A stretch of DNA of 39,247 bases from a virus: positions 1-39,247 of IMG/VR virus record IMGVR_UViG_3300033144_002179. The stretch is one strand, 5' to 3'. Under the pieces are notes generated by a model that saw only the letters and a list, made by a program, of their open reading frames with translations, searched no databases and was not told the origin of the DNA. Every line of letters begins with the position of its first letter. Position 1 is the stretch's first letter. Below are positions 6,895-16,863 of the stretch, piece after piece. The position numbers were made by a program, and so were the translations under genes.

Positions 6895-8514
6895 TTAGAA
6901 TGATCCTCCTGTTACAGGATTTCTCATTACAATTTTTAGAACTTTAGTTGGATCCTTCACCCAGATGGCCGGCATAGTTTGAGTCATCATAACTCTATAA
7001 CCATTAAAGTTACCTGTTGAAGCAAAACCTTGACTTCTACCCATATAGTCCATAGTACCATTTTGGTAGAACCACTTCAATTGATTATCCCAAGAAAGTT
7101 TCAACAAGAAAATGTTGTCATTACCTTCTTCAGTTACATCAAAAATGATAAAGCTGTAAGAGCTTAATGGTCTTCCATCAATTAATGGATTCTCAATATC
7201 ATTAGTATGTAAGTTATCAAATGCAGGATTAAGTACAAACTTAACGTTAGCTAAGAATGGAATAGTAAAGCTTGTATAAGCAAAACCAAAATCAAGATCC
7301 ATTCCTTGACCTGTTACAGCTCCTATGTCAGAAGCATTTTGTACTAAACCAGAACCATAAACTTCATCAGCAATTGCTTTATTGATCAACTGCATACCAC
7401 CAATACCTGTTTGTACAACAAGTTTTCTTTGTGGGTCTGGCCCTTTAAATTCAACTTTACCTTGATAAAAGTTGTAAAGTTCAGATTTAAACATGTCCAA
7501 AGTAAATTGAGACTTGTTATAAATTCTTTTGAAAGAGTTGTCTAATTGAGACCAAAGACCAACAGATAATCTGATGTCATCTGGACCATCTTGCTTAATT
7601 CTTCCACCTTTACCCCACATTAGGTAAGTTTCAATGTCATTAGCAATTTTAGATAAATGAGCTGCTTCCATATTAGTAATGAAAGTTCTAGTTAAAGTTC
7701 CGCTCTCAAATGCATCTCTAGCACCTGCTTTACCCATGTTTGCTACTAATTGCTCAATACTTGAAACTGAAGGATTGTTAGGATCTTGGTTAAAGTTTCT
7801 CCAGATCTCTGTTACAGGTACAGTACCATCAGCATTCAAACCACCTTTGATCATAAGATCAGCACGGCTAGAAATAGAATAGTGTACGTGAGCTTCTGCT
7901 CCTCCTACAAAATTGTAGAATTCACGGAAACCAGAACCTGTTTCAATGTCTGAAAATCTTTCACCATATTCACCTCTTGCAGAACCTTTTCTGAAATACT
8001 TAGTACCAGACACTAAATACTTAGTAGCGTCTAAAGTAGCAGCATTGTCATTGTTCACAAGTTGAACAGTGTAGATAAATCCATCTCCTGCTGGTAAAAT
8101 ATCATCAGCAGTGATGTAAAGTTCAAGACCATTGTACTTGTCATAAGTGATAATGTCACCGTGACCAAATGCTCTTTTAGATAATTTGATTTTGAAGGTA
8201 GTACCATCTCCACCGAGATCAGTAGTTGCTTCAATGTTTCCTACTGCAAAAGGAAGATCCTGTGCTACAGGTGTCTGCCATTTGTACTCTCCACGTGCAT
8301 TGTCTACCATGATAGTATTCTTTCCACCAAATGAAGCCATTTGATAAAGAGGCATTTCAACTTTTTGTGTCATTGCCCATAAATCAACCGGTCCCATATC
8401 CATAGGCTCAGCAGAACCAAGCATCTGGGTAAGGTGGTAAGAATCAACATGTGAACTTGCTTTGTAGCTAGTGTCTCTTAGGAAAATTCCGTTGTTTAAA
8501 ACTGGAGTAGCCAT
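6895..8514 (-). CDS. Major capsid protein
   Basis: A 539-residue protein and the probable main shell subunit. It lies straight after the acidic coiled-coil scaffold-like gene and after portal and TerL, the standard place for the capsid gene. Length and mixed alpha/beta content fit an HK97-fold protein with inserted domains. The region near 385-400 (QTGIGGMQLINKAIADEV) resembles the helix found in large capsid proteins of this group. Codons are relatively C/G-richer than in neighbours, as expected for a highly expressed gene, and it ends at a strong terminator. The fold assignment is inference. Confidence 0.78.
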   Translation of the reverse strand: MATPVLNNGIFLRDTSYKASSHVDSYHLTQMLGSAEPMDMGPVDLWAMTQKVEMPLYQMASFGGKNTIMVDNARGEYKWQTPVAQDLPFAVGNIEATTDLGGDGTTFKIKLSKRAFGHGDIITYDKYNGLELYITADDILPAGDGFIYTVQLVNNDNAATLDATKYLVSGTKYFRKGSARGEYGERFSDIETGSGFREFYNFVGGAEAHVHYSISSRADLMIKGGLNADGTVPVTEIWRNFNQDPNNPSVSSIEQLVANMGKAGARDAFESGTLTRTFITNMEAAHLSKIANDIETYLMWGKGGRIKQDGPDDIRLSVGLWSQLDNSFKRIYNKSQFTLDMFKSELYNFYQGKVEFKGPDPQRKLVVQTGIGGMQLINKAIADEVYGSGLVQNASDIGAVTGQGMDLDFGFAYTSFTIPFLANVKFVLNPAFDNLHTNDIENPLIDGRPLSSYSFIIFDVTEEGNDNIFLLKLSWDNQLKWFYQNGTMDYMGRSQGFASTGNFNGYRVMMTQTMPAIWVKDPTKVLKIVMRNPVTGGSF

Positions 8515-8567: not shown

Positions 8568-9878
8568 TTAGTTTCTTTTAAAAATATTATTAGGTCTTGC
8601 AATTTTTTTCTTAGACGTTCTTGATCCTTCTTTTTCTCTTTGATCAACCCCTAATGATGCTCCACCACTATTTGCTTGCTCAGTCTTTAACTTTCTTACA
8701 GTTTTTTCTACTGCTGTCTGAGCACCTTTTTCCATGATTTTACCTTTATATCCAGAAGGATCTGCTAATAACCACAGAGCTTCTGCAATAAGAGGATAAT
8801 TTGGTTCAACAAACTGATACTTCTCAAGTAAGTGACCTAACAAGTTAGTATTCTTACCACTTACAGAAGGATAGTTAGGTTGAACTAAACCATTGTATAA
8901 CATGGACTGGATTTTTCTATCCACTTTAATTTCATTTACCGTCCCCTCTTTCAATGTATTATATACATTTTCCATATATTTTTGAGAAGCTTGTTCTTGT
9001 TGCTTTCTCTTAAGTTCTTGTTGTTGGATCTTTTGAGCAACAACTTTCTCTTGCATTTTATCTAACTTAGGTTTAAACTTAGATGCTTGTTGTTCAAGCT
9101 TACCTAAGTCTTTCCAAATTTCAATTTCTTCAGCAATTTCTTCTGCTGTTCCATATCCAGTAGCACCTAGATATTCAGAAATAATTCTTTCTTGATCTCT
9201 TTCTTTCTTAATATCAAGAGATTTTGTTTCTTCTGTACCTGCAAGAGTTTGAAATAAACCTTTTAAATCAGTACCCCCTTCTGCAACATATCTTGCTGCA
9301 ACTTGCAATTCTTGAGGTAAACTCTCAAAAAATTGTTTTGGAGTTTCTCTTCTAACTTGATTAGCTTTCTCTTCAAGATTAGCCTCAATAAGTTCTTCCC
9401 AATCTTTAGTTGAATAATCTTCTAAAGCTTTATCATCATCAAAAGGAACAATCTTATCATCTTTTATAAGTTTGCTAAATACATCACTTATTCCAGAAAT
9501 CTTTTTTCTTCCTCTTGTTTCTTTTTTAACCTCTGCCTCTTCTTTACTTTCTTCAGCTTCTTCAACTAAAGAATCTAATAAATCACTTCCTGATTCTAGC
9601 GCCTCTTCCTTTTTTTCTTTAGTTTCAGCAACAGCTTCTTCAGTGGCTTCTGGTTTTTCTTCTGATACTTCATCATTTAAGTTGGTAGCATCATCAGTAG
9701 AATCTGCAAATGACATATCTACTGAATTGGAACCTTTAGAGAAAATGTTATTTTTAGGTTTAGAAGTATCTTGTGTTGGTACAGTTACACCCTCAGCTGT
9801 AGCTGCCCCATCAAAGATGGCATCTAAATCTACATCAACAGTTTCTACATTACTTTCCATTGTGTTTTTATCACTCAT
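8568..9878 (-). CDS. Scaffold-like capsid assembly protein
   Basis: A 436-residue protein. The first ~130 residues are very acidic and disordered-looking, followed by a basic patch (TRGRKK). A helical domain with a long Gln/Lys/Glu-rich coiled coil lies at about 245-300, and the C-terminus is basic. An acidic start, central coiled coil and basic end next to the capsid gene are typical of scaffolding proteins, whose basic tail binds the shell. The sequence NNIF occurs near both ends (about 42-46 and 429-433). No protease motif was seen. A TTTGTATATTG promoter-like site lies about 40 bases upstream. Confidence 0.7.
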   Translation of the reverse strand: MSDKNTMESNVETVDVDLDAIFDGAATAEGVTVPTQDTSKPKNNIFSKGSNSVDMSFADSTDDATNLNDEVSEEKPEATEEAVAETKEKKEEALESGSDLLDSLVEEAEESKEEAEVKKETRGRKKISGISDVFSKLIKDDKIVPFDDDKALEDYSTKDWEELIEANLEEKANQVRRETPKQFFESLPQELQVAARYVAEGGTDLKGLFQTLAGTEETKSLDIKKERDQERIISEYLGATGYGTAEEIAEEIEIWKDLGKLEQQASKFKPKLDKMQEKVVAQKIQQQELKRKQQEQASQKYMENVYNTLKEGTVNEIKVDRKIQSMLYNGLVQPNYPSVSGKNTNLLGHLLEKYQFVEPNYPLIAEALWLLADPSGYKGKIMEKGAQTAVEKTVRKLKTEQANSGGASLGVDQREKEGSRTSKKKIARPNNIFKRN

Positions 9879-10005: not shown

Positions 10006-12777
10006 TTATTTATTTTTATCTTTTTTATCTTTATCTTTTTTAGATTGAACATCATACTTATTCTTATTTTCTCTTGCAATTTGCAAGTTTCTATCTGCAA
10101 TTTCACGCTGTGTTGCAAGTTTCTCACGTTCAATATTCATTTTTTCATTTTGTTGAGAATTTTTTACAGCTGATTGTTCTCTTTTAAAATTCATTTGCTC
10201 TCTATATTGAGATGTTTTTTGAATTTCTTCTAACCTATCTTTATAATCTGACTGAAGATTTTGATCAATATCAAATCCAGATCCATATCCTGCAGATTTA
10301 ATCTCTGCAATAGTAATATCATTTTGTCTATCTTTATCATTCTCAGATTGTTCAAACTGAAGTTTCATTTGTTCTTCTTGTTGTTTAGCTTCAATTTGTT
10401 GCTGTTGCATTTGCTGCTGTTGAGCCATTTCTTGTTCTCTTAACGCTTGCTGTTTTGTTTCAGCATCTTTAAGAATATCAGAAACTTCAGCAATACTATC
10501 AGCTTTAATAATATTACCAAGATCATAAATAGATGCACCTGTTGTATTATTAGTAAGTGCTAATTGTTTTAGCTGCTCTAAAGTAGCTCTATGATTTGTT
10601 TTAGTAGTACAGAATATATTGAAGTCTCTAAGCAAAAGATCAGTACCATTTATTTGAAAGTTTACTTTTTCAGCTTCTGAAGAAATATAAGACAATCTAA
10701 TACTTGGATTACTACTATAATAATATTGAGCTAAGTCAGTTCTCATCTGATGAACTCTAGGCATTAGGTTATCAGAGTGTTGAGTAAAATAAGTTTCTGT
10801 TTGTGCATATGACTGATTAAGTGCCTGCACAACTCCAGTTGCAGTTTCCTGACCAATTGGTGCCCCTAATCTTTGTGGATTGATTCCTATAGCATCAAAA
10901 CATTGTTGTTTAAAGTAATTAGCTAATTGTATTCTTGACATCAATCTACCAGTCTGCTCCATATTTAAAGTCTGGTAGTGATTAAAGTTTGTTGCATTTT
11001 CAGTATTTGTGATAGAAGTATCAAGAGGTAACATCTGAAAATCTTTCATGGCAACATATGCTTTAGCATAATTATGTTTACCCCAGTCTTCACCCATTGA
11101 GTGTCTTGGTAAAGAGTTTTGATCAAACATAATTACCGTACCAAGCTCATCTACAAGAATATCAGCAATTTGATTATTTACCATATTGTATCCAACTTGG
11201 TATGCTTTCATTAAATCTACCAATGAAGTAGATCTTGTGTTTCTATCTGAAAATACTCTACCTTCTACAGGCAGCTTGCAACCATATAAAGTTTCATTAC
11301 CTTTAAATTGGAATGGAATTCTACCAGGTGTAGTTCTATCTATACCAAGATATATAGGATTAATATTATCTGCAGTCATATTAGATCTCCAGAATGCAGG
11401 CATATTAGGACCTATCTTAATACCTCCCCACACTTCATTAATCCAAAACCAATCTATATGTTCTCCTTGTAGTAAATTTTCTTTTCTTTTATTCTTAAAA
11501 ATTGATGTATCATATACACCTTTTTCAGTTACCTTAAAAGTCTCATCTACAATTTCCTGAGTTATTTCACCATCATATTCAATCTTGGTAAGGTGACCAA
11601 CTTTTCTTTGAGTTTTCCAGTAACAAGTAGTTACTCTCATAAGCTCACCTTCTCCCCATACCTCAACATCCTCACCTTCATTTAGGATTGCACTAATAAC
11701 ATCACCACCTTTTGCTGGATCATTAGACCAATTACTTACAAATTGTCTATATGCTAAACCAGGCATGTTAGTATTCCACTTATGTGATCTTGATGGATCA
11801 TAATATGCACCATCATTTTGATAACCATTTACCTGATACATTGCTGATCTAGCTGGATATATTCTTTGCAAAGACTCTAATTGATTCTTGTCCATTAAAT
11901 AACCATACTTGTCAATTACATCTGACACAGTCATTAAATCAATCTTACCAACAAAGTTAGAATCAGATATATACCTAGTATCTGGGGATTTCTGATAAAA
12001 TGTTAAAACAGGATTCCATAGCTCAACATCATAATCATCCTCAAGCATACGGAAATGCCAAAACTCTCTATCAGTAATAAGCATATCTCTAAATGCTCTT
12101 TCTTCAAGTTCTTGCATTTTAAATCTTTCCTCATCAACATTTGTTTGATGAGAAGCCCATTCTTCAATAAGTGATCTATAATCCTTTGAAAAGAAGTCTT
12201 CTATTTCTGGTAAAGATTTAATGTTTTGAGGAGACATCATTTGCTGCGCTTCTTCTGATGCAGGATCTAACCCCATTTCAATCATTCTTGCTAAAAGCTT
12301 TGCTTCTGCATCTGCTAAAAGATTTTCTTCTACTTTAACTCTTTTGGCTTCAAGCATCTCATTATAAGAAGTATCATCTACAGCTCTAAACTGCACCTTA
12401 GAATATCTTTTAGAAAATTCACCAGAAAGTACATTTATAACATTTGGGATAATAGGATAAAATTTTAATTCAAGTGCAGAATTATCTTCTTTTGTAAGAA
12501 CATCCATCATGTCCTTGTAATCATTGTCTTCTTCAACAATGTAATCTGTCTTATCTATAATACCTTTAGCAAGCTTATAATTTTTAAGTAACCTTCTAGC
12601 GTTAAGTCTTAAAAACTCCAACCCTTGAAGTTCAAGCCAATCCATATTCCAAGCTTTCCAGTCATTATCTTTTTTCTTAGCTGGTAAAAATTGAATTGGT
12701 TGAGTAAGGCTAGAACTGGTAGGATACCCCTCTCCCTTTGCCCCACTCTTTATTTGCATTGCATTTAATACTCTCAT
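10006..12777 (-). CDS. Portal protein with long charged C-terminal tail
   Basis: A 923-residue protein forming the probable portal ring at the packaging vertex. It lies between TerL and scaffold/capsid, has portal-like length and mixed helical content, and includes a region near 620-680 (LANYFKQQCFDAIGINPQRLGAP type) typical of portal stem and wing segments. From about residue 770 to the end it is dominated by Gln, Lys, Glu and Asn helices, ending in a Lys/Asp repeat. Such an extension would project from the crown into the capsid and could contact DNA or internal proteins. Assignment rests on synteny, size and this motif region. Confidence 0.8.
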   Translation of the reverse strand: MRVLNAMQIKSGAKGEGYPTSSSLTQPIQFLPAKKKDNDWKAWNMDWLELQGLEFLRLNARRLLKNYKLAKGIIDKTDYIVEEDNDYKDMMDVLTKEDNSALELKFYPIIPNVINVLSGEFSKRYSKVQFRAVDDTSYNEMLEAKRVKVEENLLADAEAKLLARMIEMGLDPASEEAQQMMSPQNIKSLPEIEDFFSKDYRSLIEEWASHQTNVDEERFKMQELEERAFRDMLITDREFWHFRMLEDDYDVELWNPVLTFYQKSPDTRYISDSNFVGKIDLMTVSDVIDKYGYLMDKNQLESLQRIYPARSAMYQVNGYQNDGAYYDPSRSHKWNTNMPGLAYRQFVSNWSNDPAKGGDVISAILNEGEDVEVWGEGELMRVTTCYWKTQRKVGHLTKIEYDGEITQEIVDETFKVTEKGVYDTSIFKNKRKENLLQGEHIDWFWINEVWGGIKIGPNMPAFWRSNMTADNINPIYLGIDRTTPGRIPFQFKGNETLYGCKLPVEGRVFSDRNTRSTSLVDLMKAYQVGYNMVNNQIADILVDELGTVIMFDQNSLPRHSMGEDWGKHNYAKAYVAMKDFQMLPLDTSITNTENATNFNHYQTLNMEQTGRLMSRIQLANYFKQQCFDAIGINPQRLGAPIGQETATGVVQALNQSYAQTETYFTQHSDNLMPRVHQMRTDLAQYYYSSNPSIRLSYISSEAEKVNFQINGTDLLLRDFNIFCTTKTNHRATLEQLKQLALTNNTTGASIYDLGNIIKADSIAEVSDILKDAETKQQALREQEMAQQQQMQQQQIEAKQQEEQMKLQFEQSENDKDRQNDITIAEIKSAGYGSGFDIDQNLQSDYKDRLEEIQKTSQYREQMNFKREQSAVKNSQQNEKMNIEREKLATQREIADRNLQIARENKNKYDVQSKKDKDKKDKNK

Positions 12778-12885: not shown

Positions 12886-15072
12886 CTATCTAAAGTTTTT
12901 AAATCCTGATCTTTTTGTTTTTTTACCTATACCACTTTTAGCCCTGCCTATGTTACTAAACGGACTATACTTTAATTTAAACAAATTTTGTGACTTATCC
13001 AAAGCTTTTACACTATCTGATTCTCTTCTTTTGCTATATCCCCTATTTGACTGTTGAACTTTAGCAAAAGCTATTAATGCTGAAAATGCAACAAGTCTAT
13101 CCACGTTAAGACCCGGATGATATGCAAGCATTTCTTTTATTAGCATTGGATCTGGTATTCTTTCTACACCTAATGTTTGAGACATTACTTCTCCATTATC
13201 ATCTAATTCTTCATCTATATGCTCTCTTAAAAACTCAATAGCATATGAAATAAGATGACTCTTAAATAAAGTACCTGTATTTTTCCAACCGTATTCTTGG
13301 TATACTGTTCTATTAGATCCAAGATCTTTAAGAAACAATATCTGTTGCTTAGGAACTAAATACTTTTGTTTTTTTCTAGCAATCATATGCTGAATAAATA
13401 ATGAAATATTGTTCTCTACTACAGTCCATGCATTATACCATTCTATAATTTTTTCTAACTGTTCATGAGTTTTATTAATATCATCATATCTACCGCACCA
13501 TGCAGCAACAATTTTATCCTTTTCTATAAAATGTTCTAAACCTTCTGATGTTTCTCTAGTAACTTCTACAGGATTTTTATAAATAAATATACTACACAAT
13601 GAATCTGATGTAGTTGTTTTACCTTCTGATACAGGGTCAACAGATGCATAATATGTACCAAACTCTGGATTCTTAGTTGGTCTTTCCCATACTACTAAAC
13701 ATCCTGTTTTATCTGATTGTTTTTTATTTACTGGAAATTGACTTATGGGTAACTTGCTAGATCTCTTTGCTATAATACCCGTTTCATCTCTATCAAGCTC
13801 AATGTGTTCATATGCATACTCTTTCTCTTCAATCCTTTTCATTTGTTTAGATAAAATACCTTGAGGAAATATAGATTCTTTTCTATATGCAAATCCTTCT
13901 GCAATATTTGTAGGTTTTTGAGATATTCTTAATTGGTATTGTTCTGCATTTAATTCTCTTTTCCACTTCTCTCTTTCTTGTATTATAGCCTGTAAAGCTT
14001 CTTCAATTTTAGAATTACCATAATTATCAATATATGGAGGCATGGACCATTGCTCAGGTATAAATAATCCTGACAAACCTATTGTACCATCTTTATCAAG
14101 AAGATTTGTTTCTACAGCATATATATCATTAACGGTTGGATTTAATATCATTTCCTTTAATGGATTACACTGATCCAAATCTCCCACAGATCCTGCAGCT
14201 ATAAACATACCTGTAGTTAACATTCCTGAAGACATTGCAGGACGCAAGTATTCATATGTCTCCATCATTTTAGGTGCAATACCTGCTTCTTCATGAAAGA
14301 AATATGTTGTAGGTCCACCTACTCCAGTAGTTGCATTCTTTTCAAAAGATGCACCTTGTATCTTAGATTTTAATCCTTTTTTAGTTTTTTTATTACCTAC
14401 CCTAACTTCAATTTGCTGTTGCCATAATAAAACTTTTTCTGGATTACTTGGTCTATACCAAGCAGTATGTTCATTTAAAAAGTCTTTATATTCATCAAGA
14501 AACTTCCATGATCCTTTATCATTAATATAATCTTTTAATGATGCTCCTATCTTACATGTACTACCTTCTTCAAACCAATAAGTATTAATTAACTTACCCA
14601 TATGGAAGTAAGAAGAAGCAATCTGTCTTTTCTTAAATATAGCTGAGTGTTTATTGTTTATCTCTGCTAATAGTTCATATAATGCCATATGGTATTGTGC
14701 ATCTCTAACCTTAGCAAATCCATACTTCTTTTCTTCTTTATCAAAAATAGGTAAGAAGTTTAACCACATGTAGTAATCTCTAGTTAAGTACCATACTTTA
14801 CCTTTATTTTTATATATGACCCCATTTCTACATTTATTCTTTTGATCATTCCAATACTCTATAAAGTCTTTTGATCTAAAAGGTTTATTACAATAAATTC
14901 CAGTATCATTAAAAAATCTGGCTTGTTCATTGAATAAAAAAGCAGTTTCATCAAAACCGTATAAACCAGGTTCTTTAAAAATTGTTTTTAAAAATTCAGC
15001 AAAGTCTTCATCTGTATTAAATGAAGACTCTGTCCAATTTCCATTTTCATATGTAGGTATTAACCTAGGCAT
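12886..15072 (-). CDS. terL: Large terminase subunit (DNA-packaging ATPase-nuclease)
   Basis: A 728-residue packaging motor protein. The N-terminal ATPase has a degenerate Walker A (KKRQIASS, about 147-154) and Walker B (TYFFHEE, about 256-262) with the catalytic Glu. The C-terminal RNase H-like nuclease carries the acidic triad: Asp in ASVDP (about 479), Glu in VVENN (about 553) and Asp in NVDRLVAF (about 658). I chose the ATG at 15072 over the in-frame TTG just before it. It overlaps the GroES-like gene by eight bases, suggesting coupled translation. No separate small terminase was recognised; one of the small genes upstream could serve. Confidence 0.9.
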   Translation of the reverse strand: MPRLIPTYENGNWTESSFNTDEDFAEFLKTIFKEPGLYGFDETAFLFNEQARFFNDTGIYCNKPFRSKDFIEYWNDQKNKCRNGVIYKNKGKVWYLTRDYYMWLNFLPIFDKEEKKYGFAKVRDAQYHMALYELLAEINNKHSAIFKKRQIASSYFHMGKLINTYWFEEGSTCKIGASLKDYINDKGSWKFLDEYKDFLNEHTAWYRPSNPEKVLLWQQQIEVRVGNKKTKKGLKSKIQGASFEKNATTGVGGPTTYFFHEEAGIAPKMMETYEYLRPAMSSGMLTTGMFIAAGSVGDLDQCNPLKEMILNPTVNDIYAVETNLLDKDGTIGLSGLFIPEQWSMPPYIDNYGNSKIEEALQAIIQEREKWKRELNAEQYQLRISQKPTNIAEGFAYRKESIFPQGILSKQMKRIEEKEYAYEHIELDRDETGIIAKRSSKLPISQFPVNKKQSDKTGCLVVWERPTKNPEFGTYYASVDPVSEGKTTTSDSLCSIFIYKNPVEVTRETSEGLEHFIEKDKIVAAWCGRYDDINKTHEQLEKIIEWYNAWTVVENNISLFIQHMIARKKQKYLVPKQQILFLKDLGSNRTVYQEYGWKNTGTLFKSHLISYAIEFLREHIDEELDDNGEVMSQTLGVERIPDPMLIKEMLAYHPGLNVDRLVAFSALIAFAKVQQSNRGYSKRRESDSVKALDKSQNLFKLKYSPFSNIGRAKSGIGKKTKRSGFKNFR

Positions 15073-15340
15073 CAACTAATATAGCAAATATATCACCTTC
15101 ATTAATTAAATAATGCTCTACTCCATCATGTCTCATAGAAACTGCTGAAGCATTTTCACTATATTGGACAAGATCTCCAATTTTAATTTGAGCAACAGCT
15201 TCACCTACTCCTACAACATGACCTTTAGGTTCTACATTCTGCTGAGGATCTGGAATAATAATATTTGTTCCAGGATAAAATTGTTCTGCTTCTAATTGTT
15301 TAATTAGAATTTTTCTTCCTACTGGTATTACTTTTTGCAT
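15065..15340 (-). CDS. GroES-like co-chaperonin
   Basis: A 91-residue protein that follows the GroES pattern end to end. It has a first strand P.GRKILIK, a loop where the GroEL-binding mobile loop sits (about 17-33, containing GTNIII in place of GGIVL), then GHVVGVGEA, IKIGDLVQY, and the closing strand EGDIFAILVDA. T4 gp31 shows that phage GroES analogues can replace the host co-chaperonin for folding a large capsid protein. Here the gene overlaps terL and is close to portal and capsid, which supports a similar job. Length equals bacterial GroES. Confidence 0.88.
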   Translation of the reverse strand: MQKVIPVGRKILIKQLEAEQFYPGTNIIIPDPQQNVEPKGHVVGVGEAVAQIKIGDLVQYSENASAVSMRHDGVEHYLINEGDIFAILVDA

Positions 15341-15356
15341 AATAATTTATTTAATA

Positions 15357-15593
15357 TTAAAATTTATCTAATTCATCATCTTTAGCTTTAAAATAAATTT
15401 CAAGCGTTTCAATTTTATCATTAGCATCTACTAATAATTGTAATGCATTTTCAGCATCTTCAAAGAAATCATTTGCTGTATGATCTCCAATACCAACTGC
15501 TTGATTTTCTAATAAATCTAAAGCCATCAAAGCTTTCTCTTTATCTGCCACAGCCTTTGCATATAAAGCATTAATTACACGTGATTTACCCAT
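15357..15593 (-). CDS. Small helical hypothetical protein
   Basis: A 78-residue, Ala/Asp/Glu-rich, almost wholly helical protein, with a likely coiled coil from about 40 to the end. It sits 16 bases before the GroES-like gene in the same direction. Small helical acidic proteins just upstream of terL are sometimes small terminases, but this one has no recognisable DNA-binding helix-turn-helix. Function unknown. Confidence 0.6.
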   Translation of the reverse strand: MGKSRVINALYAKAVADKEKALMALDLLENQAVGIGDHTANDFFEDAENALQLLVDANDKIETLEIYFKAKDDELDKF

Positions 15594-15599
15594 TTGTAT

Positions 15600-15830
15600 T
15601 TATTTAATTTTTAATTTATTAAGAGTGTGTTTTTCAAGCTCAAAATTTAAGTGATCAATTGCTTTTTGAATATCATCAATAGGCATGTCATGTTTTCTAT
15701 TTGCTCTAAGTAAATAGGTAACTGCAGTTCCTATATTATAAGATAACTCAAAGTCTTCTACTACTTTTCTTGCTTTGTATCCATGATATACACCTGTATA
15801 GTAATCTGGATCATTATGATTATTTGACAT
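15600..15830 (-). CDS. Small hypothetical protein
   Basis: A 76-residue protein with a Tyr/His-rich start (about 8-20) followed by two predicted helices, including YLLRANRKHDMPIDDIQKAIDHL near 38-60. It lies six bases before the next gene and so is part of the packaging operon. The two-helix layout could bind DNA, so it is one candidate for a small terminase, but no motif proves this. Confidence 0.6.
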   Translation of the reverse strand: MSNNHNDPDYYTGVYHGYKARKVVEDFELSYNIGTAVTYLLRANRKHDMPIDDIQKAIDHLNFELEKHTLNKLKIK

Positions 15831-16344: not shown

Positions 16345-16863
16345 TTACATCTGATCATATGCTAGTCCTTGACCACCACGCACAGATGTTTGTTGCTCAT
16401 CTTGTAAATCTTTATAAGCTCCTTTAAAAGATTGCCTAATTGCATCAAAATCTTTAGCTACAGCTCTGATTTGACTAATGTTTCCATCTCTACCATCAGT
16501 TATAGGTGTATTAGCCATATACGTTGCCATATTGTCTAAAGCTTTCTTAATTCCTAAATATGCCCTATGTGTTGGTGTTTCATACATAGCTTCACATTTA
16601 CGTAATGCAAATATAATAGCTTTATCTTCAAGAGATTCTTCTAACCCAACCTCTTCAATAATAATATCTTCTTTATCATTTTCAGGTAAATGAAAAAAAG
16701 GATTTAAATCTGGATTTGGGCAAGTCATATAAAATAAAAATTTATAAATCTGCATGTATGTATCTGGGTAGTCAGTCATTATAACTTTTAAAAACCCCAA
16801 CGCATAACAATGTTCTGTTGGTATTAACTCACCATTTTGTATATCAAATAATTTGACTATCAT
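16345..16863 (-). CDS. Hypothetical packaging-module protein
   Basis: A 172-residue protein. The N-terminal half is helical and hydrophobic in places (YKFLFYMTCPNPDLNPFF). The C-terminal part contains DGRDGNISQIR and KDFDAIRQSFKGAYKDLQ, followed by SVRGGQ. Its start codon follows the previous gene's stop by one base, implying coupled translation. I believe similar proteins occur upstream of terL in related Bacteroidota phages, but I cannot name a family. A head or packaging role is inferred from context. Confidence 0.6.
   Translation of the reverse strand: MIVKLFDIQNGELIPTEHCYALGFLKVIMTDYPDTYMQIYKFLFYMTCPNPDLNPFFHLPENDKEDIIIEEVGLEESLEDKAIIFALRKCEAMYETPTHRAYLGIKKALDNMATYMANTPITDGRDGNISQIRAVAKDFDAIRQSFKGAYKDLQDEQQTSVRGGQGLAYDQM

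Follow-up and report, generated by a model that had tools for sequence, protein, structure and literature searches.

The virus record analysed here, a 39,247-bp IMG/VR sequence that is complete as recorded (the window), encodes a co-chaperonin of the GroES fold whose gene overlaps terL, the gene for the large terminase subunit. Its distinctive traits are a coupling of groES to terL that runs through a whole clade of related phages and a roof loop shortened as in T4 gp31; phage GroES proteins as such are already known. On balance, the product would probably act as a gp31-like, nearly roofless lid for the GroEL of the host, made from the late block and with the major capsid protein as its likeliest main client.

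Results

The window encodes one GroES-fold co-chaperonin upstream of terL

The window harbors exactly one groES gene (Table 1), and no groEL gene was found in its 39,247 bp. A tRNA scan of the window returned no hits, and a scan for promoters and terminators was uninformative, the sites being no more frequent than in shuffled sequences.

Table 1. Features of the groES-terL region in the window
Feature	Position	Strand	Basis
groES, Cpn10 co-chaperonin, 91 aa, 10.0 kDa, ATG start	15065..15340	-	PF00166 and PHROG 3188; AlphaFold2 fold
terL, terminase large subunit, 728 aa, 84.5 kDa	12886..15072	-	PHROG 6681, E 2.6e-66
Portal protein, 923 aa, 107 kDa	10006..12777	-	PHROG 6547, E 6.8e-92
436-aa gene between portal and capsid genes	8568..9878	-	position only
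Major capsid protein, 539 aa, 59.8 kDa	6895..8514	-	PHROG 11589, E 5e-31
172-aa gene, adjoins groES in most relatives	16345..16863	-	locus comparison
78-aa gene, in the window lineage between the 172-aa gene and groES	15357..15593	-	locus comparison
Overlap (8 nt) of groES stop (TAG) and terL start (ATG)	15065..15072	-	sequence
Mobile-loop core GTNIIIP, residues 24-30	15251..15271	-	comparison with E. coli GroES and 79 aligned Bacteroidota sequences
Shortened roof loop EAVAQ, residues 47-51	15188..15202	-	alignment

The protein matched the Pfam profile Cpn10 (PF00166) with an E-value of 3.8e-11 and 43.3 bits (cut-off 21.1) over profile positions 1-92 of 93, as well as PHROG 3188 'co-chaperonin GroES' (E 4.8e-12). 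An AlphaFold2 model of the monomer (mean pLDDT 89.4) gave a GroES beta-barrel, for which the best structural matches were GroES chains in GroEL complexes, with 8wuc GroES at the top (Z 12.6, rmsd 2.0 over 85 residues) and 1aon_O at Z 11.4. Comparison of the model with gp31 yielded Z 9.5 (2cgt) and 8.5 at 16-18% identity; a link between the window GroES and gp31 at the sequence level was not found. It had originally been predicted that the packaging operon encodes a full-length co-chaperonin, with T4 gp31 as a precedent, and this is borne out: the gene is real, it is matched over nearly the whole profile, terL lies next to it, and profile, fold and phylogeny support both its assignment to the GroES-fold co-chaperonins and the comparison with gp31. 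Similarity to the GroES-like domain of alcohol dehydrogenases was weak (PF08240, E 0.066), and cellular GroES ranked well above such folds. A chance open reading frame or a misannotation was ruled out by the Cpn10 profile, by the repeated arrangement in relatives and by dN/dS ratios well below 1.

Because most relatives align from the ATG at 15072 (MPRLIPTYENG...), this codon is the likeliest start of terL, so that the start of terL and the groES stop share 8 nt (ATGCCTAG). With the TTG at 15075, the start listed by the ORF caller, the overlap would be 11 nt. Downstream of groES, the genes for TerL, the portal protein, the 436-aa protein and the capsid protein follow in this order on the same strand. 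As the capsid gene thus lies four genes downstream of groES, coupling to terL does not imply separation from the capsid gene, and the contrast previously drawn between a terL-coupled and a capsid-coupled copy is a false one. By position, the 436-aa gene corresponds to a gene annotated as 'peptidase' in Crassvirales cr50_1.

The location in the structural block also bears on the idea that the lid competes with host GroES on GroEL and thereby acts on host physiology or defence, with virion folding being secondary. A host-type tripeptide in the mobile loop (see below) would fit this, yet groES is not situated among early host-takeover genes and no other evidence for such a role was found, which makes it the least probable of the readings considered here.

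The 172-aa gene upstream of groES and terL is highly conserved in nearly all relatives. It had no PHROG match of weight and no fold match, and its profile resembled only weakly that of the gene preceding terL in Crassvirales cr50_1; by its position it is possibly a small terminase. In the window lineage, a 76-aa protein with DUF3310/nucleotide-kinase-associated similarity (15600-15830, minus strand) is encoded between the 172-aa gene and groES.

The roof loop is shortened and the mobile loop mildly changed

For comparison with cellular proteins, 79 Bacteroidota GroES sequences were used, each taken from beside groEL. Two records in which Bacteroidota-type groES-groEL genes were detected are titled Rokubacteria and Streptomyces griseus (L192 and L232) and are probably mis-binned or mislabelled.

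The window protein shares fold and family with Bacteroidota GroES. In the alignment, its mobile loop reads YPGTNIIIPD, compared with TASGIIIPD in the hosts. The GroEL-binding tripeptide III, the commonest one in Flavobacteriia GroES, is kept, whereas the residue preceding it is Asn instead of the Gly present in 79/79 Bacteroidota sequences, and one extra residue is inserted before the tripeptide. A Gly at this place is frequent in the GroES family but does not define it. The mobile loop had been described beforehand as changed (GTNIII); the sequence is as stated, but the change is mild, with an intact tripeptide and loss of the preceding Gly. Within the clade the loop varies widely. This Gly is found in only 40 out of 96 phage sequences and differs in 55, some relatives carry a full host-type loop and others lose part of the motif (GTTIL, then a gap), while the first tripeptide position is I, L or F in 95/96 (one gap). 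Judging from these residues, the window GroES would bind GroEL through the III tripeptide.

The exchange of a Gly that is invariant in the host set weighs against the proposed lid function. Together with the relatives that lack part of the motif, it would fit a protein that has kept the GroES fold and lost GroEL binding, either as a degenerate form or for reuse as a virion part. We regard this as very improbable, since the hydrophobic tripeptide is retained, the gene is under purifying selection and a relative that has this gene also encodes a GroEL.

A second change, which the original prediction had missed when it pointed out the mobile loop, concerns the roof. The roof loop comprises 5 residues in 94/96 phage sequences of the clade, compared with 9 in 74/79 Bacteroidota GroES and 14 in E. 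coli GroES, the sequence of which was confirmed against 1aon_O. Since the aligned roof of the Bacteroidota hosts is already shorter than that of E. coli, the step to 5 residues appears smaller than the E. coli comparison suggests. That this length is constant in 94/96 sequences suggests that the design is being maintained. When sequences of other phages were aligned, roof loops of about 4-6 residues were also seen in Cellulophaga phages phi18:3 and phi13:2, Bacteroides phage DAC16 and DSL-LC05, that of gp31 comprised about 6 residues, and long roof loops were found in PBR31, CRP-902, HTVC023P and immuto. Gp31 is reported to be devoid of roof loops, to provide a slightly larger chamber and to be essential for the folding of the ~56-kDa capsid protein gp23 (PMC6318259; PMC3012670).

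The groES-terL pair is near-fixed in the clade

Among 80 contigs anchored on TerL, groES was located directly upstream of terL in 77 and absent in one (L011), and two contigs were cut off at this place, which corresponds to 77/78 informative contigs. In 79 contigs anchored on the capsid protein, it was upstream of terL in 54 and absent in six, with 18 contigs cut off at this place and one contig lacking terL (54/60 informative). Both samples consist of the nearest relatives returned and partly overlap, and these frequencies are therefore not unbiased. Of 84 related loci, 46 had a groES/terL overlap of 8 nt, 18 one of 1 nt and 14 one of 11 nt. When 23 whole contigs were searched, 15 contained groES in exactly one copy each; the other eight comprised seven fragments devoid of groES plus L094, which breaks off within terL. 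For pairs with dS >0.1, dN/dS of groES was mostly about 0.07-0.26, indicating purifying selection. The assumption that a terL-coupled copy is unusual did not hold: the overlap is near-fixed in the clade rather than peculiar to the window copy, and other phages also carry groES in a terL-portal-capsid block.

A direct overlap with terL in most relatives, of 8 nt in over half of the loci, could be taken to mean that the lid serves TerL itself. However, the closed GroEL cage is usually given as ~60 kDa, and TerL, like the portal protein, is therefore too large to be enclosed. The groES-less relatives described below have other genes in the slot with the same kind of overlap, and one of them encodes a TerL that is 88.6% identical without groES. 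TerL as the client is thus improbable, if a little less so than a loss of GroEL binding.

In a variant of the lid reading, the nearly roofless lid would, throughout the clade, leave the cage open enough to act on late proteins that are too big to enclose, terminase and portal included, and the overlap would set the ratio of lid to motor. We consider this unlikely too, and slightly less so than a lid for TerL; if true, translational overlap with terL would match the dose of the lid to that of the motor.

Several relatives carry other genes in the groES slot

L011 and L092 share a junction in which an 81-aa gene overlaps terL in the groES position. In both, the relative of the window's 78-aa gene lies directly against terL. 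L011 lies inside a supported TerL clade of ten rows, the other nine of which possess groES; being nested among nine carriers, it represents a secondary loss or exchange. In L161, the slot holds a 562-aa Core-2/I-branching glycosyltransferase-like gene (L161:1900-3588) overlapping terL; L162 and L165 have the 172-aa gene there, which adjoins terL or overlaps with it, and in L167 and L168 a 72-aa gene takes the slot. The TerL of L165 (L165:2820-6029) comprises 1069 aa and contains an intein with a LAGLIDADG-type homing endonuclease signature (Hom_end_hint, E 1.6e-11). An assembly artefact is unlikely, as the junctions of L011 and L092 came from two separate metagenomes, and likewise those of L167 and L168. 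In total, the TerL tree requires at least three changes of groES state, although the deepest of the groES-less branches, that of L167, is long and its placement unsure.

No groES was found elsewhere in the contigs of the groES-less relatives, which are fragments of 10-32 kb. The capsid protein of L092 is 97.0% identical to that of the window, with only conservative changes. As L092 lacks groES here, a phage lid is not a strict requirement of the capsid protein, barring a copy in the unseen ~80 kb of that genome. The groES slot is thus exchangeable, and groES is useful and not indispensable, unless it has moved into unseen sequence.

These observations would favour a lid without a special client. 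Such a lid would serve many late phage proteins, among them those for capsid, portal, tail and lysis, either by increasing total GroES activity or by releasing GroEL from control by the host, and the short roof would reflect drift or broad tolerance. Dispensability in several lineages, an unchanged capsid protein in the absence of groES and the wide variation of the mobile loop would all agree with it. Against it stand the 5-residue roof in 94/96 sequences and the persistence of groES in the head block, and we regard such a general lid as a real though doubtful alternative.

The phage group is related to crAss-like phages and may infect Flavobacteriia

The named phages with a TerL related to that of the window are Crassvirales, Flavobacterium phages of the FpV type and Cellulophaga phages, with identities of about 21-26%. 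The window is accordingly placed in an uncultured group of its own that is related to the crAss-like phages; related viral contigs reach 115-120 kb. The group is presumably marine, mainly according to its flavobacterial links and general knowledge of such contigs rather than sample records. In the GroES tree, phage sequences were placed on one side of a branch opposite Bacteroidota cells with 98% SH-aLRT, although only 97 columns could be aligned and many nodes of the tree lack resolution; the topology is consistent with one old acquisition of groES in the clade.

One relative, the 114.8-kb contig of L075 (G013:C1:91476-92969), encodes a 544-aa GroEL (L171:5399-7033) that is nearest to Flavobacteriia, with up to 74% identity (Algibacter lectus). 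The gene adjoins a 663-aa DNA-polymerase-like gene and is far from the groES of the same contig. No GroEL was found in the 46 other related contigs searched. By its similarity, the L075 GroEL points to Flavobacteriia as hosts of this relative; for the window phage itself, the host can only be inferred.

Many other phages carry groES, in several cases within the head operon

For GroES, 82 viral models had E-values up to 0.001. A Flavobacteriia GroES query matched 54 phage-collection records, some of which are evident host contigs, and none of the phage records listed for this query bore a crAss-like name. In the one paper found to contain both 'crAss-like' and 'GroES', the former occurred only in the title of a reference. 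Head or packaging blocks with groES are present in Xanthomonas phage PBR31, Pelagibacter phage HTVC023P, Roseobacter phage CRP-902, Manatee Spring ct2os315 and ct2G2228, and DSL-LC05; in none of these was a direct groES/terL overlap seen, and in PBR31 groES is one short gene upstream of terL. In HTVC023P-type pelagiphages, groES is part of the core genome (PMC9599517). Cellulophaga phages phi18:3 and phi13:2 and Bacteroides phage DAC16 are Bacteroidota phages with groES and, like the window, a roof loop of 4-5 aa, but their gene is not located at an identified terL; its neighbour is a RusA/RNase H gene, or it is found close to where the genome record ends. Conversely, Crassvirales and the Flavobacterium phage FpV4 group have related terL and portal genes and share the order terL-portal-(436-aa/peptidase-like gene)-capsid with the window, but no annotated groES was found upstream of terL in FpV4 and cr50_1.

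T4 gp31 and RB49 CocO resemble the window protein in being phage co-chaperonins of the same fold with a missing or very short roof, in phages with a capsid protein of 55-60 kDa. Apart from the low identity, gp31 differs in gene neighbourhood, as T4 gene 31 lies between rIII and 31.1 and no capsid gene was located beside it in the stretch examined. Its mobile loop is lengthened (22 versus 16 residues), whereas that of the window is only about one residue longer than in host GroES. By analogy with gp31, a dependence of the capsid protein on the lid is at most predicted here.

Discussion

According to the proposed gp31-like function, the groES product would form a heptameric lid of the GroES type that caps host GroEL late in infection, alongside or instead of host GroES. 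With the roof trimmed to 5 residues, the capped cage may be roomier or open-topped, which would suit bulky phage clients. Overlap with terL would keep the lid gene in the late block, where it may be co-transcribed with the downstream genes. Due to its size, its abundance and the gp31 precedent, the capsid protein is the best candidate for the main client. A phage lid would thus help infection without being an absolute necessity for each lineage, as the near-identical capsid protein of L092 suggests.

Shortening of the roof appears to be a recurring phage change, as it is also seen in T4 and in Cellulophaga and Bacteroides phages. The present findings add a large uncultured, presumably marine phage group to those with a chaperonin lid of their own. 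Since near-identical capsid proteins occur with and without groES in close relatives, this group offers a natural experiment on the need for an own lid; the question of when a phage needs one has otherwise been studied mainly in T4.
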